Shown piece by piece: positions 2,501 to 21,877 of a stretch of DNA of 29,271 nucleotides; the stretch's first letter is position 1, and each line of letters opens with the position of its first letter. The notes under the pieces are model-generated. The model made no database searches and had not been told where the DNA came from. It worked only from the letters and a program-made list of their open reading frames with translations. The DNA comes from a virus, in IMG/VR virus record IMGVR_UViG_3300042868_001154, positions 1 to 29,271 of that record; one strand, written 5' to 3'. Both the position numbers and the translations under genes were made by a program.

Positions 2501-3643
2501 ATGACCCTTCCTGCCTCCGGTCCCATATCCCTGAACAACGTAAACGTTGAGTTGGGGCTTTCGGGTACTGCTACTATTTCTATGAACGACGCTGCTGTGC
2601 GAACGTTGTTCGGAGTGCCCTCGGGCGCGATCTCGATGAGTAACGGCTACGGCAAGTCCAATGCTTTCTCGTTCAACATTACGACAGGTACTGATAGAAA
2701 TCTACGCACCCTAGCCGTCGCTGCAGGGTGGAATACGACGAGCGCAGTTATTGCCACAATTCCTTCAGGAAATACAATCAGTGCATCCAGCCTAGCGGCT
2801 ACGGCGTTGACAATCAATGGCTCCTTCCCAGCGGGTGTGACCCTAGTAAACTCCGGCACCGTCCTTGGCTTCACGGGCACGACTGGAACTACAGGTACTG
2901 CGGGCGGTACAGGTGCTACGGGTGCTACGGGAACTACGGGAACTACAGGCGCTAATGGTGCTGGTGGTGCAGCTAGCGGCTTTGGCGGTAACGGCGGGCC
3001 GGGTTCGGCTGGCGGCGGTGCCGGTAACGGTGGTCCCGGTGGTACAGGTGGTATTGGTGGCAATGGAACTGCAGGTGGCACAGGTGGTACAGGCGGCCTT
3101 GCATTGAGTGTGTCTGTTGCAACATCTATCAACAACCTTGGCTCACTTGTAGGCGGTGTCGGTGGTACGGGTGGTACAGGTGGAGCGGCTGGCGCTGGTG
3201 GTCCCGGTGGTACTGGTGGTCCCGGTGGCACTCGCGCAGGCGGCGGTGGCGGTGGTGGCGGTGGTGGCTCATACTCATCAGGCGGTAAGTATCCAGTATG
3301 TACGCTCTCCGCTGGTGGTGCTGGCGGTCGGGGCTTCGGTATATCAGGCGCAGCCCTTGCGGGTAACGCAGGGGGTACTAATGCAGGTACAGGCGGTACA
3401 GGTGGAGGTAGCGCGGCAGCAGGTGCTGCGGGTGGCAATGGTATCAACGGCTGCGGCGGTGCAGGTGTTGGCGGCGCTGGCGGTGCTGCGGGTGCTGCAG
3501 GTGCTACTGGCCTTACTGGTGGTACAGGTACAGCGGGTTCTGCTGGCGGCACAGGTGCTGCAGGTGCTAGGGGCGCGTATATAGCGGGTATAGCAAATGT
3601 TACATGGATCAATTTTGGAACACGAACAGGAACAGCATCATGA
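2501..3643 (+). CDS. Glycine-rich distal tail-fibre adhesin (polyglycine-II-like)
   Basis: A 380-residue protein with AAGGAG placed well before its ATG. Residues 1-125 form an attachment-type domain (SGPISLNNVNVELGLSGTATISMNDAAVRTLFG, then SNGYGKSNAFSFNI). From about residue 127 to 355 it consists of GGTGG, GATG, GGPGG and GGAGG repeats, broken by non-glycine insertions (LALSVSVATSINNLGSLVGG; SYSSGGKYPVCTLSAGG; GFGISGAALAGNA; NGCGG). A run of about ten glycines lies at 3239-3268. The end (ANVTWINFGTRTGTAS) is a compact cap. Glycine-rich tips of this type fold as polyglycine-II helix bundles in T4-like Gp38 adhesins, where the loops set receptor choice; assignment here is by pattern only. The two visible Cys are in the insertions. 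The stop overlaps the start of the next gene (ATGA). Confidence 0.78.
   Translation: MTLPASGPISLNNVNVELGLSGTATISMNDAAVRTLFGVPSGAISMSNGYGKSNAFSFNITTGTDRNLRTLAVAAGWNTTSAVIATIPSGNTISASSLAATALTINGSFPAGVTLVNSGTVLGFTGTTGTTGTAGGTGATGATGTTGTTGANGAGGAASGFGGNGGPGSAGGGAGNGGPGGTGGIGGNGTAGGTGGTGGLALSVSVATSINNLGSLVGGVGGTGGTGGAAGAGGPGGTGGPGGTRAGGGGGGGGGGSYSSGGKYPVCTLSAGGAGGRGFGISGAALAGNAGGTNAGTGGTGGGSAAAGAAGGNGINGCGGAGVGGAGGAAGAAGATGLTGGTGTAGSAGGTGAAGARGAYIAGIANVTWINFGTRTGTAS
2878..3580 (+). repeat. Low-complexity GGN-rich tract coding the glycine-rich fibre domain
   Basis: About 700 bases of imperfect short repeats built from GGTGGTACAGGT, GGTGGTCCCGGT and GGTGCTACGGGT-like units in the coding frame of the adhesin. 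The units favour GGT and GGC codons. Such tracts are slippage- and recombination-prone, which would shift repeat number without breaking the frame. Confidence 0.8.
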
Positions 3644-4044
3644 TTAAGTACAAAATAGTTGAAGTAAACCAAGCCGAGCACTCAATTGTCGTGCGGTATT
3701 ACACAGAAAAAATCACGGAAACCATGTTGGCTACTGATACCCTTGACGGAGTTATCCGTCGCTGCCGTACAGACTACAGTATGGATTTACCTATCCCTGC
3801 GCCAGAAGGTGCGGAGCTGGAGCAGTTTATTATGCTTCGCGCCCCTGCAGACTGGCTTGCCAGCATGGAAAAGATGAACGATACTGCGAGCCCTGTGTCT
3901 ATGGACGCGCTCGTTGCCTTGATTGGTGTTGAGAAATCTCAGGAGCCGTTGGTGGTAACCAGTATTGCACCGCCGCAAAACGAAGCCGCCCTCACGCTGA
4001 AGATTAAAGAAGTTGTAACTGAGCTACTCCAAGGAAATATCTAA
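3640..4044 (+). CDS. Small protein coupled to the adhesin, possible fibre-assembly partner
   Basis: I choose the ATG at 3640, which overlaps the adhesin stop (ATGA), giving 134 residues starting MIKYKIVEVNQAEHSIVVRYY. An upstream ATG at 3604 is inside the adhesin and would only add a 12-residue low-quality leader. The N-terminal 45 residues look like a small beta unit; the middle is acidic (PIPAPEGAELEQFI) and the C-terminus is helical (ALTLKIKEVVTELL). I do not recognise a named domain. Small genes directly after a phage adhesin often encode tail-fibre assembly chaperones, and the tight coupling fits that, but this is inference from position. No signal peptide or membrane segment is visible. 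Confidence 0.8.
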   Translation: MIKYKIVEVNQAEHSIVVRYYTEKITETMLATDTLDGVIRRCRTDYSMDLPIPAPEGAELEQFIMLRAPADWLASMEKMNDTASPVSMDALVALIGVEKSQEPLVVTSIAPPQNEAALTLKIKEVVTELLQGNI

Positions 4045-4046
4045 GT

Positions 4047-4919
4047 ATGCGTTTCCTAGTCCCCGCGTTGTTGGCGCTGTCTAGCACTACAGCTCTTGCT
4101 GCGCTACCCGATACTCTGACGTTCTACTCCCCCAACCCAGCGGGAACACAGACGGTTGCGTGCCGAACACTGGCTAAACTCTATGATGAGAAGTATGGCA
4201 CAACCAGTACGGTTGCGTTCAAGCCCGGTGTTGCTGGTGTGTTAGCAATGAAGGAGATGCTGGCCGATAAGAAGTTTGCCATGCTCTGTTCAGGTATTTC
4301 CGAGAGCGTCATCAACACCAGCGTATACCCCGGCTACGAAGAAGACCACAAACAACTGACGATGGTGTCGGTTGTAGCACTCAGCCCTACAGTATTCAGC
4401 ACAAGTGCCAGTAGCAAGTTCAGCAGTTTGCCAGAGATGCTCAAGGCGGGCAAGCCGATAACAGTTGGCTACCATTCAAGCTCGTTACAGTTTGTGGCTA
4501 AAGCTGCACTAGCCGGTGCGCCTGTTATCTGGATACCGTTTAAGGCGGGGGCTGATGGCGTACCGTCGCTTGTAGATGGCTCTCTTGATTTGTATGTTGA
4601 TGGTGGGGCGCTGTCGGCGCTTATCGCTGCGGGAAAACTAAAGAGCTTAGGGCATATCAACGGCCCTGCCGCTACTGCTGGACCCGACATAAGCAAACAG
4701 TACCCTGCGGCGGCTAAGCTACAAATCATTACTGCTATCTCTACCTCCACCAAGAATAAACCCGCCGACATTGAAGAGATGAACAAGCGTATTGTTCCGC
4801 TGACTAAGCACCCTGAGTTCATCGCGGCCATGGATAAAGTGAGTAACACCCCAGTGCAAATGTCGGTAGTGGAGTCAAATAGCGTAATTGAGCACTTCCG
4901 CAAAGAGTTCTACAAGTAA
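4047..4919 (+). CDS. Secreted Bug/TctC-family tripartite tricarboxylate transporter solute-binding protein
   Basis: A 290-residue protein with a clear signal peptide: M-R, hydrophobic core FLVPALLALSSTTA, and an ALA cleavage site at residues 16-18. The mature protein follows the Bug (Bordetella uptake gene)/TctC layout. It has an N-terminal strand then P-x-AGT (in place of PFAAGG) and a CRTLAKLYDEKYG helix, the VAFKPGVAGVLAM loop (family: VENRPGAGG..GA), the SVVALSPTVFSTSASSKFSSLPEMLK segment, an IPFKAGADGVPSLVDGSLDLYVDGG segment (family: VPYKG...DLLGGQVD), and IAAGKLKSLG. These proteins capture small carboxylates in the periplasm for TctAB-type transporters; no transporter subunit is nearby. 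It is slightly shorter than the usual roughly 320 residues. AAGGA precedes the start by 11 bases, and the stop overlaps the next start (TAATG). This is an unusual gene in a late phage operon, probably host-derived. Confidence 0.85.
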   Translation: MRFLVPALLALSSTTALAALPDTLTFYSPNPAGTQTVACRTLAKLYDEKYGTTSTVAFKPGVAGVLAMKEMLADKKFAMLCSGISESVINTSVYPGYEEDHKQLTMVSVVALSPTVFSTSASSKFSSLPEMLKAGKPITVGYHSSSLQFVAKAALAGAPVIWIPFKAGADGVPSLVDGSLDLYVDGGALSALIAAGKLKSLGHINGPAATAGPDISKQYPAAAKLQIITAISTSTKNKPADIEEMNKRIVPLTKHPEFIAAMDKVSNTPVQMSVVESNSVIEHFRKEFYK

Positions 4920-6049
4920 TGCACCCGCACAAGCGCCTAGGTACGTATCGTGTCGGGGCTGCTGAATTCCACACGCGGGCAGACGCACTCATGTATGCGT
5001 CGATTTCAGGCGGTGAGCCTCGGTGGGACTTTAATGAGGATGTGTTCGGTACCGTAGACTGGGCGACACCCGTTGAGACCCCGTTACTGGAACTCTACCG
5101 GCAGCGTGCACAGCAGCTCCGCGACAAGTACGACTTTGTATCCTTGTTCTTCAGTGGCGGGGTGGACAGCACCATGGCGCTCCATGCGTTCATTGACAAC
5201 AACATCCACCTAGACGAAATCGTCATGTACCGACCAGCCCGGATGGTGCCCAAGGCAAACAAGACCGATCTGTCTAGCGGCAACATATTCTCAGAAATTG
5301 AGTTTGCTGCGGTTCCCCATCTACAGGAGCACCTGCGAGATAGCAAGACGGTAGTCAGATTTTTAGACTTAGACGTGAACATTGAGAAGTTCCTGACCCA
5401 TGAAGACACGATGGCGCAGTACACGTCTTTGAAGAACCCGAACCCGAACTATTTGGCTAGGCTGGCGATGTGCACCCAAGACCCAGTATGGAACGCGCTG
5501 TACTTAGCGGACAAGAAAGTCTGCCATATCCAAGGAGTAGACAAGCCAGTAGTCAGTTTTCGCAACGGGGAGTACTATTTTCAGTTCAACGACAACATGC
5601 TGATGAATGTGTTTTCTCCTGCATTCGGCTCCGCCAATGCCGACATGGTTGTTAAGAATCAGTTTCACGAGTTGTTCTACTGGACCCCGGACCTACCGCA
5701 GATAGTCATAAAGCAGGCGCAGACCGTCAAGAACTTGGCCCAGAACAACGTGCTACTGCGGCTGCTTATCTCGGGTACCTACAACGTCAATGAGAGCACC
5801 ATGACTCCGGTTCTTAAGTACCTTTATCCACCTCACGTAGTAGCTGTACGCGATAGGTTCACTGTGGGTAAAATATCACCATCGGCTAAAGCACCCCACA
5901 ACAAGTGGTTCTATGACATGATGCCGACTAACACGCAGGGTGCGTTTGCAGATATGTTTAAAGCGCTGGAAGGTAAGGTCAGCGGTCAGTATTTGCATCC
6001 GACTACGCATGACTTGACGGTATTCAGAAGCCCCTTCTACAAAATTTAG
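4919..6049 (+). CDS. PP-loop ATP pyrophosphatase-like enzyme
   Basis: A 376-residue protein containing the PP-loop signature SGGVDS at residues 79-84, preceded by a hydrophobic strand (FVSLFF) and followed by T, a helix and the DEIVMYRP strand. This is the nucleotide-binding core of the adenine nucleotide alpha-hydrolase-like superfamily (asparagine synthetase C-domain, QueC, argininosuccinate synthetase, PAPS reductase). Known members adenylate a carboxyl, carbonyl or similar group and release pyrophosphate. Residues 1-75 form a small N-terminal domain ending in ELYRQRAQQLRDKYD. The C-terminal 200 residues carry no motif I can name; no glutaminase domain is present. The substrate is unknown. 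No signal peptide, so it is cytoplasmic. Its ATG overlaps the Bug-protein stop (TAATG), implying coupled translation. Proteins of this general kind do occur near phage tail genes, without established function as far as I know. Confidence 0.82.
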   Translation: MHPHKRLGTYRVGAAEFHTRADALMYASISGGEPRWDFNEDVFGTVDWATPVETPLLELYRQRAQQLRDKYDFVSLFFSGGVDSTMALHAFIDNNIHLDEIVMYRPARMVPKANKTDLSSGNIFSEIEFAAVPHLQEHLRDSKTVVRFLDLDVNIEKFLTHEDTMAQYTSLKNPNPNYLARLAMCTQDPVWNALYLADKKVCHIQGVDKPVVSFRNGEYYFQFNDNMLMNVFSPAFGSANADMVVKNQFHELFYWTPDLPQIVIKQAQTVKNLAQNNVLLRLLISGTYNVNESTMTPVLKYLYPPHVVAVRDRFTVGKISPSAKAPHNKWFYDMMPTNTQGAFADMFKALEGKVSGQYLHPTTHDLTVFRSPFYKI

Positions 6050-6057
6050 GACTGTGT

Positions 6058-6240
6058 ATGATTGACTACCTTGCATCCGCTGCTAGTCCGTGGCCTAATA
6101 CGGTGCCCAAGTTGCAGTTGGTATGCGAGGTGCGTCCTGCGGACAAGAACGGGCGAGTCACCTACGGGGTTAATGAGTTCGTAATTGACGGAAAGGTTTG
6201 TCGGTACATTCTGAAAGTCCCGGAGGTTAAGCGTGATTGA
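6058..6240 (+). CDS. Small hypothetical protein
   Basis: A 60-residue ORF with AGGA six bases before its ATG. It starts eight bases after the PP-loop gene and overlaps the next gene by eight bases, as expected in this compact operon. The sequence (PKLQLVCEVRPADKNGRVTYGVNEFVIDGKVCRYILKVP) reads as a small beta-sheet protein with two Cys. No hydrophobic span and no known family recognised. It could be an accessory of either the enzyme upstream or the lysis genes downstream; nothing in the sequence decides. Confidence 0.6.
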   Translation: MIDYLASAASPWPNTVPKLQLVCEVRPADKNGRVTYGVNEFVIDGKVCRYILKVPEVKRD

Positions 6241-6706
6241 CCCGTTCACAGCATTTGCCGCAGCCCAAGCAGCCGTTAAGGGTATCAAAGCAGCCATTGC
6301 CCTAGGTAAGGATATCCAGTCGGCCAGCGGGGACATCTTAAAATTCTTTGATGCTAAAGACACGCTAACAATTGCCAGCACGAACCCCAAGAAAGCCGGT
6401 GTCAAAAAATCAGACATGGCCCGAGCGGCAGAGCTTGTTCTGCACGCGCACCAGATTCAGAAGGCAGAAGCCGATCTGCGGGAGTATTTGATCTACACCG
6501 GCAACGCCCAGATATGGGACCAGATCATGGTAGAGCGCAACCGAATTCAGGCTGAGCGCCGTGCCGAAGAGGCCCGCACCAAGAAGGCACACGCCAAGAA
6601 GTTGCAAGAGATCAAGGACGCCACTGCCCTAACCCTAGGTGCATTGCTGCTATCCATCTTGATTTACCTGACCATAAATATCACAATCGAAGTTACAAAA
6701 CCATGA
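6233..6706 (+). CDS. Coiled-coil protein with a single C-terminal membrane anchor
   Basis: The start is GTG at 6233, chosen because GGAGG lies at 6222-6226 and the frame overlaps the previous gene only slightly. The 157 residues begin MIDPFTAFAAAQAAVKGIKAAI, continue as a basic and acidic helical stretch (residues 85-128, rich in E, R, K and A, coiled-coil-like), and end with one hydrophobic span at about 131-152 (LTLGALLLSILIYLTINITI). Predicted topology is tail-anchored with the bulk in the cytoplasm. I recognise the N-terminal pattern as recurring in environmental phage genomes near lysis genes but know no assigned function. Position in front of the holin suggests a role in lysis control or in membrane targeting. 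The stop overlaps the next ATG (ATGA). Confidence 0.8.
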   Translation: MIDPFTAFAAAQAAVKGIKAAIALGKDIQSASGDILKFFDAKDTLTIASTNPKKAGVKKSDMARAAELVLHAHQIQKAEADLREYLIYTGNAQIWDQIMVERNRIQAERRAEEARTKKAHAKKLQEIKDATALTLGALLLSILIYLTINITIEVTKP

Positions 6707-7320
6707 GCGATGAGAAGTTAAACGCCAACACAACGCTTGACAAGGTTCTCGGGTATGTGGACTCGCCGTTTAAACTTGCAGCTATCCTTATCATGGGCTT
6801 GGTCGCTTTCGCTGGTTACTTTGTTTACACAAACCAAGACCTTCTCATTGGGGCCTACAAAGAGTCCAAGAAGATACCCAGCATTGCCGAGGACAGGGTT
6901 GAAGATGCCTCTGCCCACCTGTTCAAAACCACCAACGCCACTATCGTTGCGGTGTTTAAAGTTAACCCCATGTTTGGGACTCGTGTGTTGTACCGGGCCT
7001 ACGCCAAGGACGGCAGAGACAAAACCAATGACGGGCTGGATGTGGGACTGTTTACAAACAACGCAGCCAATAATGCTGACGTTATAAAGCTGATGGCAAA
7101 CGAAGTCCCTTGCGGGGAGTACCGCACAGCGCAGTCTGAAATGGGTATTTGGTACATCAACAAGGGCGTTACCTATACTTGCAGAATCAGTGTTCCACCA
7201 GAGCCGGGGCGGTTCGTGGGGCAGATAACCGTGGGGTGGGAGACGGAACCCACAGACTTAGAATCAGCACGAACCATGCTTAGTATTGCCGCAACCATGC
7301 TTTCAAGGAGTAAACAATAA
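6703..7320 (+). CDS. Single-TM protein with periplasmic C-terminal domain
   Basis: A 205-residue protein. After about 22 mostly polar N-terminal residues comes one hydrophobic span (residues 23-44, FKLAAILIMGLVAFAGYFVY). A roughly 160-residue soluble domain follows, with just two cysteines, C137 and C160, which could form a disulfide if the domain is periplasmic (N-in, C-out). No cleavage site is seen. It overlaps the previous gene by ATGA and abuts the holin gene (TAATG at 7318-7322). It is not recognisable as an Rz/Rz1 spanin: there is no lipobox and no long coiled coil. Family unknown to me; a lysis or host-membrane function is inferred from neighbours only. Confidence 0.78.
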   Translation: MSDEKLNANTTLDKVLGYVDSPFKLAAILIMGLVAFAGYFVYTNQDLLIGAYKESKKIPSIAEDRVEDASAHLFKTTNATIVAVFKVNPMFGTRVLYRAYAKDGRDKTNDGLDVGLFTNNAANNADVIKLMANEVPCGEYRTAQSEMGIWYINKGVTYTCRISVPPEPGRFVGQITVGWETEPTDLESARTMLSIAATMLSRSKQ

Positions 7321-7778
7321 TGTTTGACATTTCAGGACTGCTGCAAGTAGGCGGCAAAATCATCGACAAGTTAATCCCCGACCCTGAAGCCAAGGCACGG
7401 GCACAACTCGAACTGGCAACGCTGGCTCAAACTGGCGAGTTGGCGCAAATGGCAAACGACACCAAGTTGGTCGAGTTGAGTAACGCCAACACTGACAGCG
7501 CTCGTGACATGAACGCCAAGGTACAGGAATCAACCAGTGCATCATGGCTGGCAAAAAACACGGCCTACGCGCTGGACATCGGGATTGTCTCGGCCACCAT
7601 CTTCTTGGCGTGGTTTGCGTTTATGAAGGGCGTTCCAGATGCCAATAAAGAGCTGGTGTATATGGCGCTTGGCTCACTTATCACCATGTCTGGCACCGTG
7701 CTGAACTTCCACCGTGGTAGTTCTCAGGGCTCCAAAGACAAGGGTAGCGAAATCCAAAAACTCAAGGAACAACAATGA
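7320..7778 (+). CDS. Holin, GTA 3TM-type
   Basis: A 152-residue protein with AAGGAG before its ATG. The N-terminus (DISGLLQVGGKIIDKLIPDPEAKARAQLELATL) and the later WLAKNTAYALDIGIVSATIFLAWFAF and VYMALGSLITMSGTVLNFHRG segments match the layout of the family described as holin of 3TMs for gene-transfer release (GTA_holin_3TM). Two strong membrane spans are visible at about residues 83-104 and 113-132; a third, weaker one would be N-terminal. The C-terminal tail is charged and cytoplasmic. Holins form the inner-membrane lesion that starts lysis and releases the endolysin. The endolysin gene follows with a 4-base overlap. Confidence 0.8.
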   Translation: MFDISGLLQVGGKIIDKLIPDPEAKARAQLELATLAQTGELAQMANDTKLVELSNANTDSARDMNAKVQESTSASWLAKNTAYALDIGIVSATIFLAWFAFMKGVPDANKELVYMALGSLITMSGTVLNFHRGSSQGSKDKGSEIQKLKEQQ

Positions 7779-8287
7779 GAAACAACTTTGCCGAAGCCCT
7801 GCAAGCCCTGCTGAAACATGAAGGCGGCTATGTAAACCATCCGTCCGACCCCGGCGGCATGACCAATCTGGGGGTTACTAAGAAGGTCTGGGAAGAGTGG
7901 GTCGGCCATCCGGTAACCGAAGCTGCCATGCGTGCGCTTAAGCCTGAAGATGTTGCTGCCCTGTACAAGGCTAAGTACTGGGATAAGGTCCAAGGTGACT
8001 TTTTACCCGACGGTGTAGACCTTGCGGTGTTCGATGCTGCGGTTAATTCTGGCCCCGGACGCGCAGCAAAATGGCTCCAAGAGCTTGTGGGTGCTAAAGC
8101 AGATGGCGTAATTGGCCCCCAGACGCTAACTACTGTCGGGCAGATCGACCCCAAAAAGCTCGTGGCAGATTACAATGCCCACAGATTGGCGTTCCTAAAG
8201 GGACTGCCGACATTCCCTACATTCGGTAAGGGCTGGTCCAACCGGGTAGCCGCTGTGACGACCGAAGCGCTTGCCATGACCGCATGA
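7775..8287 (+). CDS. Endolysin, glycoside hydrolase family 108 with PG_binding_3 domain
   Basis: A 170-residue peptidoglycan-degrading enzyme. The N-terminal GH108 domain has the signature HEGGYVNHPSDPGGMTNLGVT, with E16 as the catalytic Glu of the family, followed by the AALYKAKYWDKV block. The C-terminal half (ADGVIGPQTLTTVGQIDPKKLVADYNAHRLAFLK through GKGWSNRV) is the family's usual PG_binding_3 region. Length is normal for these compact endolysins. No signal peptide or anchor is present, so it depends on the holin encoded just upstream (4-base ATGA overlap; AAGGAAC ribosome site). It cleaves the murein of the host, consistent with a Gram-negative host. Confidence 0.93.
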   Translation: MRNNFAEALQALLKHEGGYVNHPSDPGGMTNLGVTKKVWEEWVGHPVTEAAMRALKPEDVAALYKAKYWDKVQGDFLPDGVDLAVFDAAVNSGPGRAAKWLQELVGAKADGVIGPQTLTTVGQIDPKKLVADYNAHRLAFLKGLPTFPTFGKGWSNRVAAVTTEALAMTA

Positions 8288-15331: not shown

Positions 15332-18300
15332 ATGGCTTGGACTCCTCCTGCTGATGCTATTACAACACCAGCGGCTACTACAGCCAGCGAAACTTCTTGG
15401 ACCCCACCCAGCGATGCAGAAGAGCAGGGGGCTCGCGGGCTGTCTGCTATAGGGCCATCCACCATGCGTGGACTTCGTGGGCTTGTGTCTTTGGGTGGCG
15501 ATGTTATCCCAGCCATGTGGGCTCACGCTATCGGCAATAAGGCTGAAGCAGAAAAGCAAATGCAGGAGGCTGCGGCCTACGGCAAGGAAACTGAAAAGCT
15601 GTATCCATCTGCAATTGGTTCGTATGAGAATATTAAAGGTCTGGGTGACTTCGGTACTTATGTTGTTGAGGCCGTCGGTGAGGCTATACCAACTTTAATC
15701 CCTAGCTTGTTTACTGGTGGTGCTGCGACAGTGGCTGGGCGAGGTGCAGTTGTTGCCGCAAAGATGGCCGCAGAAAAAGCTGCTGTAGCGCAAATAGCTA
15801 AAGGCGCAACCCAAGCGGAAATCAAAGCCGCAGCTATGAAGGCAGGCGTAGCCGCAGCTAATAAAGTAGCCCTGAAGTATCAAGCTACCGGCGCAGTTGC
15901 AGGCTCTGCCGCACAGAACATTCCCGATGTTTTCCAGAATATCTATGAGAAGACAGGCAAGATGGACTTGGGCGCGGCTATTGTGGCCGGTGGGTTTAAC
16001 GCTGCACTAGATGCAATAACCCCAGTTCAGCTACTGCGTAAGGCTACGGCGAGTGGCATATCTCCGAACGAAATCGCTGCGGCTTGGTACAAACGTGCCG
16101 GTAAGGGTCTAGCTAAAGGGTTCGTGACAGAGGGCGGTACTGAGGCAATTCAAGAGATGTCTAGTGCTGCTGCCGAAAAGTTTGTAGACAACAACCTCAA
16201 CTTCTTCACCGAGAAAAACTTTAAACGCTTTCTGGATTCCGGTCTTAAAGGCGGTATCGGCGGCGGAGTCATCACGGGTGCTACAGACGTAGCTTTCGGC
16301 AAGGGGCCAGAGAGAACAGACATTACGAAGAAGACTGGTGACAACACAACCACTATTTCGACTGACACCCCGCTTACACCTGAGCAAAAAGCGCAGATGG
16401 GGGGCACATCTGCTGCTACCAAAGCACCTACACCTACACCGACAGCCAAACAACAGGCTCGGCAAGATACAGTTGAGCAGCGTGCGCAAGTTATTGAAGA
16501 GCAGTATGGAATTACACGGGATGACGCCGTGCGTATGGCTGAGGATGATGTCGCTGCGGAAGAAGCAAAGATCAAAGGACTGTCTACAGAAGCCCCGGAT
16601 ACTCGGGTTAAGACTCGTGCCGTAGAACTTATTGACTCTGGTGTAGAACCCGAGCAGGCGTACGCTACTGCGATGCAGCAAATCCAAGACGAGCTGGAAG
16701 CCGATGCCCAAGCTAAAGAAGAAGGTGCCCTAGATGTTACAGGAACTAAGCCCAAGCCAAGTCGAAAAAGCACTGGAGTGGCTAAGCAACCCATTGCAGT
16801 CGCCCCTGCCGCAGGACCTGAAGCACTTACACGAGATGGAGTGGTTCCTACTGGGGAGGATGTTGGAGTCCCTGCTGTGGGAGAAGAGCAGCAGCCCGGT
16901 GCATTAGCCGAAACTCAATTTATACCGCCAATTGACGCAATAGAAACCGCTACAACCCAAGAAGGAGTCCCTACAAGTGTCATTACGCCCACTCAAGCCA
17001 TCGAAACAAAACCGAAAAAACAAAAAGCAGCAGCCCCAGCCGCAGTAGTAGTCCCTGAAGTACCAAAGGTTGACGTAGCAGCAGCATCTGTTGCAACCGA
17101 CCCGGCTGAAATCCAGCAGCACCTTGATGCCATTGAGACTGAAGGAGCTACGTTGCTATCTAAGGATGGCCGATTCCCCAAGAAGGGGACCGCTAAACGC
17201 ACTCGGCTGGAAGAGATCGGCGCGTTGAAGCGTGACCTGACTGCTAAGCTGCAACCCGCAATAGCCGAAGCCCCTACGCCCACTGGAACCAAGACCGAGC
17301 TATCGGAGGAAGAAAAATACCAAGCACAAGAAGCTGCGATTAAAGCCGATGATGAAGCACTAGAAGCTGCGATTAAAGCTGACGACGAAGCACAAGCAGC
17401 ATGGGAGGCTAAGAAAGCTAGAGTTGAAAGTATGGGTGTACAAGCTGCCCGTACAGCATTTGACCAAAAAGATGATCCTGAACATGGTGGCGATATCAAC
17501 CGGGCTATTGAAGCGTACAGTGGCAATCTTGGAGACACACTAGCCGAAACACGTACAGAACGTGGGGAGCAGCCCAACGAACGAGACTCGCTAAATGATG
17601 CCGCAGACCGTGCGTTTAATGCTGAAATAGAGAAACTTAAAGCCAAAGCCCCTGCGCCCACTGAAGCCAAGACCGAAGCCAAGACCGAAGCCAAGACCGA
17701 AGCCAAAGAACCTGATGATTGGTACAGTTTTGTTGATGATGCTAAAGAACAAGCAGAGCAGGAACTTGCTGAAGAAAGAGAAGGCGGAGGTGGGGCACGG
17801 GAGTATGAAGGGTATGTTCGTGATGTTAGCAAGAGCCCGTTTGTGCAAGCTCCCCCGTCCAGAATTGGCCCCTTGCTCAACGCTGAGCTTGCAGAGGAGC
17901 AGCGGAAGCGCCGTGCGCCTAGTGCTACAGAAGAAAAGGCTGCGGCCAAGGCTAAGGAAAAAGCTGAACTTGCCTCTAAGGAAGAGCAAGAAAAAGCCGC
18001 CGCTACTGAACGCGATGCGGAAGCTGAAAAACGAGCTGGTGCTATTGACGTAGTGGCTATGGCCCCACAAATTCTTGGTGCGCTCCAAGAGATCGCCAAG
18101 TCCAAGGCATTCCCGGAAAGCATCAGAAAGGATGCTGAGCGGTACCTTAAAGAAATCGCCAGAGCAAGCAAAGAGAACGAAGCCCCAGAAGGCAGTCTTG
18201 AGCCTGCGTACCATTTCGTCGTTGCGCAAGCTAGCAAACCCCGGTTCATGAGAACTGGCATTAAATCACTCCCATCTATCGGCAAAGACAAAGTTCAGGC

Positions 18301-21300
18301 TATTGTGGACTTGCTGGTTGCTCGTTGGAAGAACGCCCCTACGGTTGTGGTTGCCGACAATATTAACGATGCAGTAGTACCAGAAGCACTGCAAAAAGCT
18401 GACGCGGAGGCTAAGGCTAAGGGTGCTACGGGTGTACCTGCTGGTGTCTTCTACAAGGGCAAGGTCTACATTTTTGCCGACCAGATGAAGAGCCCCACTG
18501 AGACGATCAGAACTCTGTTCCATGAGTCGCTCGGCCACTTTGGCTTGCGTGGTGTATTCGGTGCAGACCTTAAGCCTATTCTCGAACAGGTTGCTCGTGA
18601 CCACAAAAAGCAGATCGAGGCTATCGGCGAGAAGTACGGCCTTGACCTGAGCAAAGAAGAAGACGTGCTGGAGGCAGCGGAAGAAGTCCTAGCCAACCTA
18701 GCGCAGACCAAGCCTACTATGGGTGTGGTGCAACGTGCAATAGCTGCTGTGCGTAGATTCATGCGCCGTGTTGGTATGGACGTAACCCTGTCTAATAATG
18801 ACCTGATCGCTAACTACATCCTCCCAGCCCGTGCCTTTGTTGAAGGTCAGCGTATTGATCGTGTAGTGGATGGCGCACCGGGCTTTATGCGTACCGAGGA
18901 AGAAGCTGAGCTGACTCCTGAAGAAGAGAAGGTGCGCAAGGATACTGTTCGCAATGAGCAGCAAATTGAGATGGATGTGAAGAAGGCGCAGTTCAAGTTT
19001 GCAGAGTCTGCAAAGGCACAGAAAGCAGCCGAAGGGGTATCTGCACTTCAGATGGCTAAGGACCCGCGCAAGTCTATCCCAGCTATGCGGGCTCTATGGA
19101 AGTGGGCTACGAGATCGCAGCGTAAAGTATTGGCTAATGCAGTACCAACAGGGTTCTTGGTTGACTGGGTCGGCGGCGCAATCCCCGAGATGAAGAACAC
19201 CTACACGCTGCTGCAACGCATGGGTGGTATGACTGACCAACTTCTGAACGCTACAGGTGAACTCACGAACGAAGTAAACCGCGCCTTCCAAGCAGACGAA
19301 ACACTGCGGGGTAAGTTGGACAAAATAACTTCCGTAGCTACTCTAGCTAAGATAGACCCAGCAGAAATTGACACTGCTGAACGAAGCGGAGACCTAGACA
19401 AGGCATGGAAAGAGCTTGGCCCTGAAGGTCAAAAAGTCTACAAGCGTATTCGAAACCACTTCGATGTGTTGTCCAAGTATCTGTCTAAGCTGTTGGATGA
19501 CCAAGTTGCTAGCCTAAACATTACGCCGGAAGAAAAATCCAACCTGACTAAGAAAATTCGAGCTACGTTCGAGCGCGGCAGTCGGATTAACCCGTACTTT
19601 GCTTTGGTGCGCAATGGTGATTTTTGGTTATCTATGGGTTCCGGCGAAAACCGCTTGTTCTTTATGGGCGAGACTGAAGCAGAACGTGATAGTGTTGCTC
19701 GGGAGTTTGCTGCTGAGAAGATTAAGCGCAAGGATGGGGAGTCTGATGCCGCATACAACAAACGTGTGGACGAGAAACTAGCTGAACTTGAGAAAGATAG
19801 TGAGTTCGAAATGGGGGATGACATTACGTCACTGCGTAATAAACCGTACTTCCAAGGCCAGAGCACAATGCTCAGTGGTGTATTTGACGCCATCGACGGC
19901 ATTAACTTTGCCGACCCCGAAGCAAGCGCGATGTTGAAGGACTCTATCTACCAGACGTTCCTAGAGACGATGCCTGACCAGAGTTTCCGCAAGCAGTTTA
20001 TCCACCGTAAGGGTGTTGCTGGCTTCCGTGTCGATGTGCTCCAGAACACTGCCCATACTTCCGCACGTATGGCTACACAGCTTGCTCGCATCAAGTACTC
20101 TCCACTCCTGCGCAATTCGCTGTCGGCAGCAAAGGACTCTATCCGGGGACGTAGGGCGCTCGACCCGTTCGTTGACGCTATGGCTGCTCGTGTAGATCAC
20201 GCACTTACACCCAAGGTAAAGTCAACAGCCTCTGATGTGGTTAGTGCGCTCAACAAGGCGTCGTTCATCTACTACCTGAGCGGTGCATCTTCTGCGCTAT
20301 TGCAACCTCTGAGCATTCTACAAACAGGTATGCCCGTGTTATCAAAGTACGGTGTAGTTGCTGCTACTCGTGAAATGGGTAGTATGTTCAAAGTGTGGAA
20401 CCAAGTCGGCGCATATAAAACTAATCTGGATGGGTCAAAATCTTGGGTGGCCCCGTCAATCCTGTATGGTAGTGATATGACTCCGTTGGAACGCAAGGCT
20501 TACAGAGCAGCAGCCGAACGTGGCCTCTTTGCTTCTACCCAAGCTGCGTCTGTGTTTGAGTACAAAGCTACGCCGACTGAAAAACTTCAGGGGCCTAAAG
20601 AGAAGTTCGCTCGTGGTACTGTGGATGCGCTGGTACTCGGTGGGCTGATGAACTCTTCGGAACGTCTGTCTAGGGAGCTAGTGTGGAAAAGCTCATTCCG
20701 GCTGAACATGAAGAAGCACGGTGACTTTACTCGTGCAGTAAACCAATCTGTAGACGATACGAACGAGTCACTTGGCGATTACGGTGAGAGTGCTCGACCT
20801 GTGTTTATGAATGGGTTAGGCGGTAAGTTACTGACGCAGTTCATGATGTACCCGCTGACCATCACTGCGTTCTTGGTGAAAAACTTTAGGGACATGATTA
20901 AACCAATGAGTGGCGGTACCCGTGCTGAAGCCTGCCATAAGTTCTTTGGGGCTCTGGGCGCTACTTACGTGCTCGCTGGCATTACTGGCTTGCCTATGTT
21001 TAGTACAGTGATGGGCATGATTGGTGCTGCATGGGAGCAGTTAAAAGACGATGACTGGCCTGAAGAAATGCGTGCCCTAGGCTTCGAAGCATGGTGGGCA
21101 AATATATGGCTGCATGAACAACTCGGTGAGACAAAGATTGATGGCGTAGCGTTGTCAGACCTCATTCTCCGGGGTCCTGTAAATGCGTTTACTGGAGTCG
21201 ATATAGCTGGTCGTACTGGCGCCAACAACCTTTGGTTCCGAGACTCGAAAGAGAGTGGCACTATTCGGGAGAGCATAACTGCAACGGCGCTGGAAAAAGC

Positions 21301-21877
21301 TGGACCGTCGGCGAATATGATCTTGTCCGCAGCGGACGGAGTCGATGCTGCCTTCCAAGGTGACTACGCCAAAGCGGTGAAAAAATGGGCACCTGCCGGG
21401 TTCCGTAATTTCATCACTGCTCACGAGTTAGTTACCGAGGGTGCTAAGAACAACAAGGGCCAAGAAGTCCTGTCAAAAGATTCTGTCAGCACGGGCATGG
21501 CAATCGCGCAGGTTATTGGGTTCCGGCCTGACCTTCTTGCGGATACACAGTCTGTTGCGTTCAAGGTTATTGGTGCTGAGCAAAAAATCTTGCAGGAAGA
21601 GAATAAACTGCTGGATAGGCTGGACAGAGAGTATCGGAACAACAATGTCGATGCGTATATAAAACTGTTCGATAAAGTGGATGCGTTCAACAAGAAGTAT
21701 CCATCGCACGCAATTGATGAGGATAAGATATCTAATTCGCTGCTGAAGCGTGAAGAGCTACGGGGCATGTCATACCACGGTGTTGTACCTACTGAGCGTA
21801 ACGTGGTAAATATAGGCGCAATGAAACACGTGGGTGAGCGGGCTGCGGAAGCTGAGCGTAAAAGCAAAGGCCAATAA
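15332..21877 (+). CDS. Giant ejection-type virion protein with putative HExxxH metalloprotease domain
   Basis: A 2181-residue protein, AAGGA six bases before its ATG. The N-terminus has two WTPP repeats. Residues about 90-330 are Ala/Gly-rich, membrane-active-looking helices (IPSLFTGGAATVAG; EGGTEAIQEMSSAAAEKF; GLKGGIGGGVITGATDVAFG). Residues about 350-900 are acidic/basic low complexity with EAAIKADDEA and TEAK repeats. A folded block follows with HESLGHFGLRG at 1064-1074 (HExxxH) and AAEEVLANLAQ at 1115-1125. The spacing resembles zincins where a later Glu is the third zinc ligand (dipeptidyl peptidase III uses HELLGH and EE). The long C-terminal part includes FRKQFIHRKGVAGF (about 1552) and hydrophobic spans at about 1835-1900. 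Large multi-domain proteins like this are packed in virions and ejected. Last gene of the block, followed by a terminator hairpin. Confidence 0.8.
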   Translation: MAWTPPADAITTPAATTASETSWTPPSDAEEQGARGLSAIGPSTMRGLRGLVSLGGDVIPAMWAHAIGNKAEAEKQMQEAAAYGKETEKLYPSAIGSYENIKGLGDFGTYVVEAVGEAIPTLIPSLFTGGAATVAGRGAVVAAKMAAEKAAVAQIAKGATQAEIKAAAMKAGVAAANKVALKYQATGAVAGSAAQNIPDVFQNIYEKTGKMDLGAAIVAGGFNAALDAITPVQLLRKATASGISPNEIAAAWYKRAGKGLAKGFVTEGGTEAIQEMSSAAAEKFVDNNLNFFTEKNFKRFLDSGLKGGIGGGVITGATDVAFGKGPERTDITKKTGDNTTTISTDTPLTPEQKAQMGGTSAATKAPTPTPTAKQQARQDTVEQRAQVIEEQYGITRDDAVRMAEDDVAAEEAKIKGLSTEAPDTRVKTRAVELIDSGVEPEQAYATAMQQIQDELEADAQAKEEGALDVTGTKPKPSRKSTGVAKQPIAVAPAAGPEALTRDGVVPTGEDVGVPAVGEEQQPGALAETQFIPPIDAIETATTQEGVPTSVITPTQAIETKPKKQKAAAPAAVVVPEVPKVDVAAASVATDPAEIQQHLDAIETEGATLLSKDGRFPKKGTAKRTRLEEIGALKRDLTAKLQPAIAEAPTPTGTKTELSEEEKYQAQEAAIKADDEALEAAIKADDEAQAAWEAKKARVESMGVQAARTAFDQKDDPEHGGDINRAIEAYSGNLGDTLAETRTERGEQPNERDSLNDAADRAFNAEIEKLKAKAPAPTEAKTEAKTEAKTEAKEPDDWYSFVDDAKEQAEQELAEEREGGGGAREYEGYVRDVSKSPFVQAPPSRIGPLLNAELAEEQRKRRAPSATEEKAAAKAKEKAELASKEEQEKAAATERDAEAEKRAGAIDVVAMAPQILGALQEIAKSKAFPESIRKDAERYLKEIARASKENEAPEGSLEPAYHFVVAQASKPRFMRTGIKSLPSIGKDKVQAIVDLLVARWKNAPTVVVADNINDAVVPEALQKADAEAKAKGATGVPAGVFYKGKVYIFADQMKSPTETIRTLFHESLGHFGLRGVFGADLKPILEQVARDHKKQIEAIGEKYGLDLSKEEDVLEAAEEVLANLAQTKPTMGVVQRAIAAVRRFMRRVGMDVTLSNNDLIANYILPARAFVEGQRIDRVVDGAPGFMRTEEEAELTPEEEKVRKDTVRNEQQIEMDVKKAQFKFAESAKAQKAAEGVSALQMAKDPRKSIPAMRALWKWATRSQRKVLANAVPTGFLVDWVGGAIPEMKNTYTLLQRMGGMTDQLLNATGELTNEVNRAFQADETLRGKLDKITSVATLAKIDPAEIDTAERSGDLDKAWKELGPEGQKVYKRIRNHFDVLSKYLSKLLDDQVASLNITPEEKSNLTKKIRATFERGSRINPYFALVRNGDFWLSMGSGENRLFFMGETEAERDSVAREFAAEKIKRKDGESDAAYNKRVDEKLAELEKDSEFEMGDDITSLRNKPYFQGQSTMLSGVFDAIDGINFADPEASAMLKDSIYQTFLETMPDQSFRKQFIHRKGVAGFRVDVLQNTAHTSARMATQLARIKYSPLLRNSLSAAKDSIRGRRALDPFVDAMAARVDHALTPKVKSTASDVVSALNKASFIYYLSGASSALLQPLSILQTGMPVLSKYGVVAATREMGSMFKVWNQVGAYKTNLDGSKSWVAPSILYGSDMTPLERKAYRAAAERGLFASTQAASVFEYKATPTEKLQGPKEKFARGTVDALVLGGLMNSSERLSRELVWKSSFRLNMKKHGDFTRAVNQSVDDTNESLGDYGESARPVFMNGLGGKLLTQFMMYPLTITAFLVKNFRDMIKPMSGGTRAEACHKFFGALGATYVLAGITGLPMFSTVMGMIGAAWEQLKDDDWPEEMRALGFEAWWANIWLHEQLGETKIDGVALSDLILRGPVNAFTGVDIAGRTGANNLWFRDSKESGTIRESITATALEKAGPSANMILSAADGVDAAFQGDYAKAVKKWAPAGFRNFITAHELVTEGAKNNKGQEVLSKDSVSTGMAIAQVIGFRPDLLADTQSVAFKVIGAEQKILQEENKLLDRLDREYRNNNVDAYIKLFDKVDAFNKKYPSHAIDEDKISNSLLKREELRGMSYHGVVPTERNVVNIGAMKHVGERAAEAERKSKGQ
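17330..17395 (+). repeat. Two tandem 33-bp repeats in the giant protein gene
   Basis: Units 17330-17362 and 17363-17395 encode EAAIKADDEAL and EAAIKADDEAQ in frame. They differ at a few, mostly silent positions. Confidence 0.85.
17663..17707 (+). repeat. Perfect 12-bp tandem repeat coding (TEAK)n
   Basis: The unit GAAGCCAAGACC occurs in tandem from 17663 to 17698, with a fourth partial unit at 17699-17707. It encodes TEAKTEAKTEAKTEAKEP inside the charged linker of the giant virion protein. Perfect identity suggests slippage-type expansion; the number of units probably varies between relatives. Confidence 0.9.

Follow-up and report, generated by a model that had tools for sequence, protein, structure and literature searches.

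A putative secreted TctC-type binding protein and a PP-loop enzyme encoded by a recurrent gene pair in unrelated phages

Gene organization of the locus

The window, that is the whole stretch of 29,271 bases that was analysed, is an IMG/VR record corresponding to a phage contig of freshwater type. Its genes include those for tail fibre, head, ejection-type and DarB-like proteins, a primase-helicase, a holin and an endolysin. The gene under study is an open reading frame of 290 codons on the plus strand, starting with ATG, whose limits are exactly those given in an earlier note made from the sequence alone. This note had described a secreted protein of the Bug/TctC family in a phage late operon, and had proposed a profile search, a structure prediction with inspection of the ligand pocket, a tree and a search for linked genes in other phages. 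The tail fibre gene (S74) is followed, in order, by genes for a Gly-rich protein, a 146-aa protein, the TctC-like protein, the PP-loop protein, proteins of 157 aa and 205 aa, the holin and the GH108 endolysin. The features considered below are the following.

3604 to 4044, plus strand: 146-aa conserved protein (p146), 5′ border of a cargo slot (homologues at other loci)
4047 to 4919, plus strand: TctC-fold, putatively secreted TTT/Bug-type substrate-binding protein (SBP), 290 aa (PF03401, Foldseek, phage homologues)
4047 to 4100, plus strand: predicted signal peptide MRFLVPALLALSSTTALA, predicted AxA-type cleavage at about residue 18 (n/h/AxA layout, heuristic)
4131 to 4157, plus strand: degenerate TTT-SBP motif PNPAGTQTV, canonically PFxAGGxxD (sequence and alignments; definition from PMC8556258)
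4575 to 4604, plus strand: DGSLDLYVDG, phage-clade signature equivalent to the GxxDxxFDN segment of TphC (conserved in six sequences)
4917 to 4921, plus strand: TAATG, SBP stop codon overlapping the PP-loop start codon (sequence)
4919 to 6049, plus strand: PP-loop (SGGVDS) ATP-pyrophosphatase-type enzyme, 376 aa, partner of the SBP (40-member alignment, model, adjacency statistics)
5153 to 5170, plus strand: SGGVDS PP-loop motif, residues 79-84 (S79, G81, D83 and S84 invariant in 40 family members)
6233 to 6706, plus strand: 157-aa conserved protein, 3′ border of the slot (homologues at related loci)
7320 to 8287, plus strand: lysis cassette, holin (GTA_holin_3TM) and GH108 endolysin

Through the TAATG overlap, translation of the SBP and of the PP-loop protein is likely to be coupled. 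Homologues of p146 are found directly 5′ of the same two genes in L002, L005, L294 and L298, and 5′ of different cargo in L042, L014, L034 and L029. Because these four related phages, devoid of the SBP, carry other genes between the 146-aa and 157-aa borders, the interval is a cargo site of which the SBP is one tenant. Inspected by eye, this slot (window 3604-6233; also L042, L014, L034, L029 and L035) holds varied unnamed genes, some of them cupin-like or ferritin/hydrolase-like. Elsewhere in the window, the tail-fibre-like gene (985-2490) contains internal repeats, with off-diagonal matches of 140 bases (1699-1838 and 1867-2006, 88.6%), and a 2,181-aa protein (15332-21877) resembles DarB-like antirestriction proteins in its C-terminal part. 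PADLOC models gave no match for the SBP, the PP-loop protein or p146, and their assignment to a known defence system was rejected on this basis.

Family, fold and export of the binding protein

The SBP matches the Pfam TctC family (PF03401) with an E-value of 1.7e-8 and 34.8 bits (gathering score 27) over residues 40-221. Its best PDB match by phmmer is Bug27 (2qpq, E 4.6e-6). A profile built from the SBP and its two nearest phage homologues picks up Burkholderiales Bug proteins over almost their full length (best E 1.2e-21, residues 19-281), and a profile restricted to the phage clade recovers TBP and Bug27 at E about 1e-6 to 1e-5. PF03401 is matched by 19 of the 22 phage homologues (E 0.01); no match was obtained in the record of the sibling L005. 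The AlphaFold model (pLDDT 90.7) superimposes over the whole chain with TBP (8hk9), Bug27 (2qpq) and TphC (7ndr), with Foldseek TM scores of 0.79-0.83, the best (0.83) being for 8hk9; the alignment used for folding included eight bacterial Bug sequences, and this fold call is accordingly not fully independent of the family assignment. An alternative identity as a TAXI-TRAP protein (TIGR02122) was discarded, the model score being far below the cut-off.

The N-terminal sequence MRFLVPALLALSSTTALA has the layout of a signal peptide, and this type of N-terminus is preserved in all 23 phage homologues examined, as judged from an n/h/AxA heuristic. The sequence motifs quoted in the earlier note are all present in the protein. 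The observation of the earlier note, a secreted Bug/TctC-type protein encoded in a phage late operon, is thus confirmed.

The ligand motif of the TTT substrate-binding proteins is PFxAGGxxD (PMC8556258). The window SBP departs from it, and the loop is shorter in L005 and L298. The GxGSTSH loop is likewise degenerate in the phage clade of the window. The canonical PFxAGGxxD motif is found, or nearly so, in the phage members L313, L314 and L326. The "whole-length Bug-like layout" put forward in the earlier note thus stands for the fold, but does not extend to the ligand pocket. With both motifs degenerate, classical carboxylate binding should not be assumed for the window clade, and the ligand of this clade has probably changed relative to that of classical Bug proteins. 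Moreover, since PFxAGGxxD was lost in the window clade and kept in L314 and L326, the various phage SBPs probably differ in their ligand or in how they bind it. The most conserved motif of the clade is DGSLDLYVDG, identical in six members except at V184, replaced by P in two of them. Two cysteines, Cys39 (4161-4163) and Cys81 (4287-4289), are invariant across the phage clade and may form a disulfide in this presumably periplasmic protein. To judge from its sequence, the SBP is a divergent descendant of the TTT substrate-binding proteins, predicted to work like them while lacking one of their defining motifs.

Origin of the binding protein gene

The gene is found on an independent contig from another metagenome (L002, 3300046028_000120; 93% identical), within the same gene order on both flanks. 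Between the two copies, nucleotide identity is 91.8%, the changes are distributed 18/5/48 over the three codon positions and dN/dS is about 0.24, a pattern indicating that the gene is under purifying selection. The search for linked TctC genes in other phage genomes was fruitful, and four further phage lineages carry the SBP. In the second lineage (L005/L004), the genes for the 146-aa and 157-aa proteins likewise flank a gene for an SBP 42% identical to that of the window; L294-L297 and L298 are other members.

Contamination with host DNA, an assembly chimera or a chance reading frame might be imagined. Such errors do happen: INPHARED includes two entries labelled as "Bacteriophage sp.", L344 (MT836965.1) and L345 (MT835824.1), whose DNA appears simply bacterial, with TctC and TctA-like genes close together. 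Nevertheless, the neighbouring phage genes are shared by independent contigs, the gene is under purifying selection and several lineages carry it, which makes this explanation extremely improbable, and the host-DNA chimera that the earlier note had held capable of refuting its reading is ruled out by L002 and L005.

Searches of the cultured phages in INPHARED with the window SBP and its L005 sibling returned nothing, and a canonical-type phage SBP gave two matches only, both on the bacterial-looking contigs. On the cellular side, 399 Burkholderiales genomes searched with the phage profile yielded no close relative at E 1e-20, part of the candidates per genome being scored. An alignment-based scan of genome contigs with query A1 gave no relative, and L289, the sole extra contig retrieved with the DNA motif N..YPG.EE, was spurious. 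In trees, phage SBPs form phage-only clades on branches too long to settle the monophyly of all phage SBPs. A recent host origin of the SBP is unsupported by the 399-genome search and by these long-branched clades.

The PP-loop partner

The downstream protein belongs to a family that combines the SGGxDS motif with a PP-loop fold, as in N-type ATP pyrophosphatases. Its model has a pLDDT of 89.6, and the nearest folds according to Foldseek are carbapenam/beta-lactam synthetase, LarE, AsnB and NadE, with matches restricted to one domain, the PP-loop, and TM scores of 0.2-0.37. These enzymes all adenylate carboxylates. With respect to curated families, one of 40 members matches QueC at 0.004 and no other Pfam family is matched at E 0.01; matches to PHROG are weak and scattered. 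Membership of the asparagine synthetase, QueC or PAPS reductase families, for which no adequate curated match was obtained, was not retained. Among 369 genomes from the GTDB class containing Burkholderiales, the family profile turned up no relative at E 1e-10, and tblastn of INPHARED with four members gave no match and no cultured representative. In the sample searched, the family was found only in viruses and would thus appear to be virus-specific.

Recurrence of the pair

The earlier note was right in seeing a secreted SBP in a late operon, but it treated the gene as a lone one. Since it overlaps the downstream PP-loop gene and travels with it, the SBP gene should be considered one half of a two-gene module instead of an isolated auxiliary gene. 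The pair is conserved in L002, L005/L004 and L294-L298. It also occurs in L271, which represents another phage type and was found with a DNA pattern derived from the SBP motif DGSLDLYVDG alone; there, a PP-loop gene (48% identical) adjoins the SBP gene. A DNA ligase-like gene was recognised by eye in L271.

Scanning with four PP-loop proteins, three of which are SBP-linked, led to 54 loci. With iterated profiles, TctC-like genes were seen to adjoin many PP-loop genes on the same strand, 5′ in some cases and 3′ in others. Clustering at 70% identity gave 28 PP-loop clusters with sufficient flanking sequence, of which 14 have a directly adjacent TctC-like neighbour on the same strand, the gaps being mostly of -56 to +15 nt; two of these 14 are tandem PP-loops of one locus type sharing a single SBP. 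In the control, made of 159 phage loci (L012-L170) retrieved with other genes from the phage group to which the window belongs and less diverse than the PP-loop set, none of 1,729 distinct ORFs is TctC-like (Fisher p 1.6e-22 for adjacency versus control, uncorrected for relatedness). L339, with a split PP-loop ORF, and L348, a second pair in the L308 phage, come in addition to these 14 clusters. One phage contig (L340:33-4966) contains a pair of divergent SBP/PP-loop modules that stand back to back, one on each strand; in the plus-strand module another PP-loop-like ORF sits between the two genes. The other half of the 28 clusters have no TctC neighbour. Conversely, second TctC-like genes are observed at L346:2377-3351 (260-kb record) and L347:2670-3611 (52-kb record) with no adjoining PP-loop gene, the pair being present elsewhere in the genome.

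Over 13 non-redundant pairs, the distances among the SBPs correlate with those among the PP-loop proteins (Mantel r 0.63, p 3.5e-4). To account for where an SBP is present or on which side it lies, the PP-loop tree requires 12 changes; for presence alone, strongly supported branches force at least 8. The pair recurs in unrelated phages, on either side and above chance. That the same two families were re-paired repeatedly speaks most strongly for a joint function. No account of this pairing was found in the open-access library searched, which is not proof of absence. These observations suggest that the SBP and the PP-loop protein constitute an undescribed two-gene phage module.

Other neighbours of the PP-loop genes

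Several other genes accompany the family. Gram-negative porins (PF13609) are encoded two genes away from the PP-loop gene at L348:1718-2617 and L309:6685-7608, with a conserved protein of 101-102 aa in between. A Porin_2 gene lies directly 5′ of the PP-loop gene in L335, and an outer-membrane beta-barrel protein is encoded at this position in L342. A porin as a constant partner was not retained, PF13609 being detected in 2 of 37 records only. A class-I glutamine amidotransferase (PF00117), a possible ammonia donor, is encoded a few genes 5′ of the pair at L318:295-1053. In the large phages L007, L009, L306, L307 and L308, genes of the UDP-glucose/GDP-mannose dehydrogenase family are found just 5′ of the PP-loop gene, together with radical SAM and sulfotransferase-like genes; UDP-sugar dehydrogenases produce sugar carboxylates. 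Carbamoyltransferase, cytidylyltransferase-mannose isomerase and glycosyltransferase-like genes were also found near PP-loop genes. No TctA permease gene was detected in 20 phage records, so that any uptake would need a host permease.

Possible functions of the module

Proteins of the TTT/Bug family bind small acids in the periplasm for the TctAB permease. The pairing, the fold and the export of the SBP are either observed or well supported. Considering these properties, it may tentatively be proposed, at somewhat under even odds, that the SBP is the periplasmic half of a two-gene module that captures and activates a carboxylate with the help of a borrowed host permease. The ligand, its transport, the reaction and the benefit to the phage would be as follows. 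Late in infection, the SBP would be exported to the periplasm and would capture a small molecule there, probably one that bears a carboxylate. Uptake would occur via an inner-membrane permease of the host (TctAB or similar, assumed to be present). The cytosolic PP-loop enzyme would then adenylate the captured carboxylate, leading to its amidation or to its joining to another group. The product might be a nutrient or cofactor serving the phage directly, or part of a modified envelope glycan. This proposal is favoured by the recurrence and co-divergence of the pair, the kinship of the enzyme fold, the amidotransferase of L318, the UDP-sugar dehydrogenases near several PP-loop genes and the porins of L348 and L309. 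It is weakened by the degenerate PFxAGGxxD motif, the lack of a permease gene, the unpaired half of the PP-loop clusters, the unpaired SBPs of L346 and L347, and fold matches limited to one domain. A bolder and rather doubtful version may be imagined, in which a dedicated periplasmic capture protein and a cytosolic ATP-dependent ligase would form a phage-specific two-component system that imports and activates one specific host or environmental acid, that has spread repeatedly among unrelated uncultivated phages and that in some of them uses a phage-encoded porin as its outer-membrane entry. If so, the two components and the porin would represent a trans-envelope acquisition route built by the phage.

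The glycan-type genes neighbouring PP-loop genes make envelope modification the leading rival. The PP-loop enzyme would amidate or otherwise modify a sugar carboxylate of a surface polysaccharide, the SBP would handle a glycan precursor or product in the periplasm, and the outcome for the infected cell would be an altered receptor, superinfection or immunity rather than nutrition. The dehydrogenase genes, present in 5 of 26 PP-loop loci, and the radical SAM, sulfotransferase-like, carbamoyltransferase, cytidylyltransferase-mannose isomerase and glycosyltransferase-like neighbours all point this way. However, such neighbours are mostly seen at TctC-less or T4-like loci, none of them occurs at the window locus, and TTT-SBPs are known to bind small molecules; this explanation is therefore considered unlikely.

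Both remaining possibilities leave the enzyme aside. The SBP might be a decoy that occupies a TctAB-type permease of the host or another periplasmic receptor, thereby blocking uptake, signalling or superinfecting phages, with an unrelated PP-loop protein next to it. A secreted SBP encoded in the late operon, with a degenerate pocket and no permease of its own, would suit such a role, which nevertheless appears improbable, as it leaves unexplained the repeated pairing in both orders and the co-divergence of the two families, and as the canonical pocket motif is retained in several of the other phage SBPs. Alternatively, the SBP might boost carboxylate uptake independently of the neighbouring enzyme, as a stand-alone nutrient gene. 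The phage PstS proteins offer a precedent (PMC10976474, PMC6359870), and the TctC genes of L346 and L347 without a PP-loop neighbour are in line with this idea. Yet PstS is recent and host-matched in cyanophages, whereas the phage SBPs are far from any cellular Bug protein sampled, and the association with the enzyme would again be left unexplained; we regard such a role as distinctly improbable.

The capture-and-activate module, if it works as proposed, would mean that phages reprogram envelope uptake in the dying cell and process the cargo with an enzyme of their own. It would also make a virus-specific enzyme family, seen in many aquatic phages, accessible to experiment. Even without a mechanism, the pairing helps function guessing for both genes. 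Phage auxiliary genes are usually catalogued singly, by annotation; here an ordinary-looking transporter accessory is half of a recurrent pair.

Comparison with known systems

Viral tct genes have been mentioned before, namely a tctA-domain match in SUP05 viruses (PMC4164917) and "tricarboxylate transport" genes beside viral norB/nirK (PMC8115048). These cases also concern uncultivated phages, but they are single mentions without PP-loop pairing, recurrence or function. The earlier note was right in citing no established function for a phage-encoded member.

With the TTT substrate-binding proteins (Bug27, BugD, TphC, AdpC, MatC; PF03401), the window SBP shares the signal peptide, the two-domain fold and full-length homology. 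It differs from them in being encoded by a phage, in its 18-19% identity in the best fold alignments and in its degenerate PFxAGGxxD and GxGSTSH loops, as well as in having a PP-loop enzyme as partner, with no TctA found. This partner has the SGGxDS motif and the nucleotide-binding fold of N-type ATP pyrophosphatases such as AsnB, beta-lactam synthetase, LarE and NadE. In contrast to that group, it has no Pfam Asn_synthase match and no glutaminase domain was seen; it possesses its own N- and C-terminal regions and is found only in viruses in the sample searched.

The cyanophage PstS proteins are also instructive. Phage PstS helps to sustain the supply of phosphate and prevents a delay in lysis (PMC10976474; PMC6359870). 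As at the locus studied here, the phage contributes no more than the periplasmic binding protein, and uptake would depend on the permease of the host (PMC10976474). Unlike PstS, the window SBP belongs to another SBP family with another ligand class, shows no sign of a recent host origin and has a recurrent enzyme partner.
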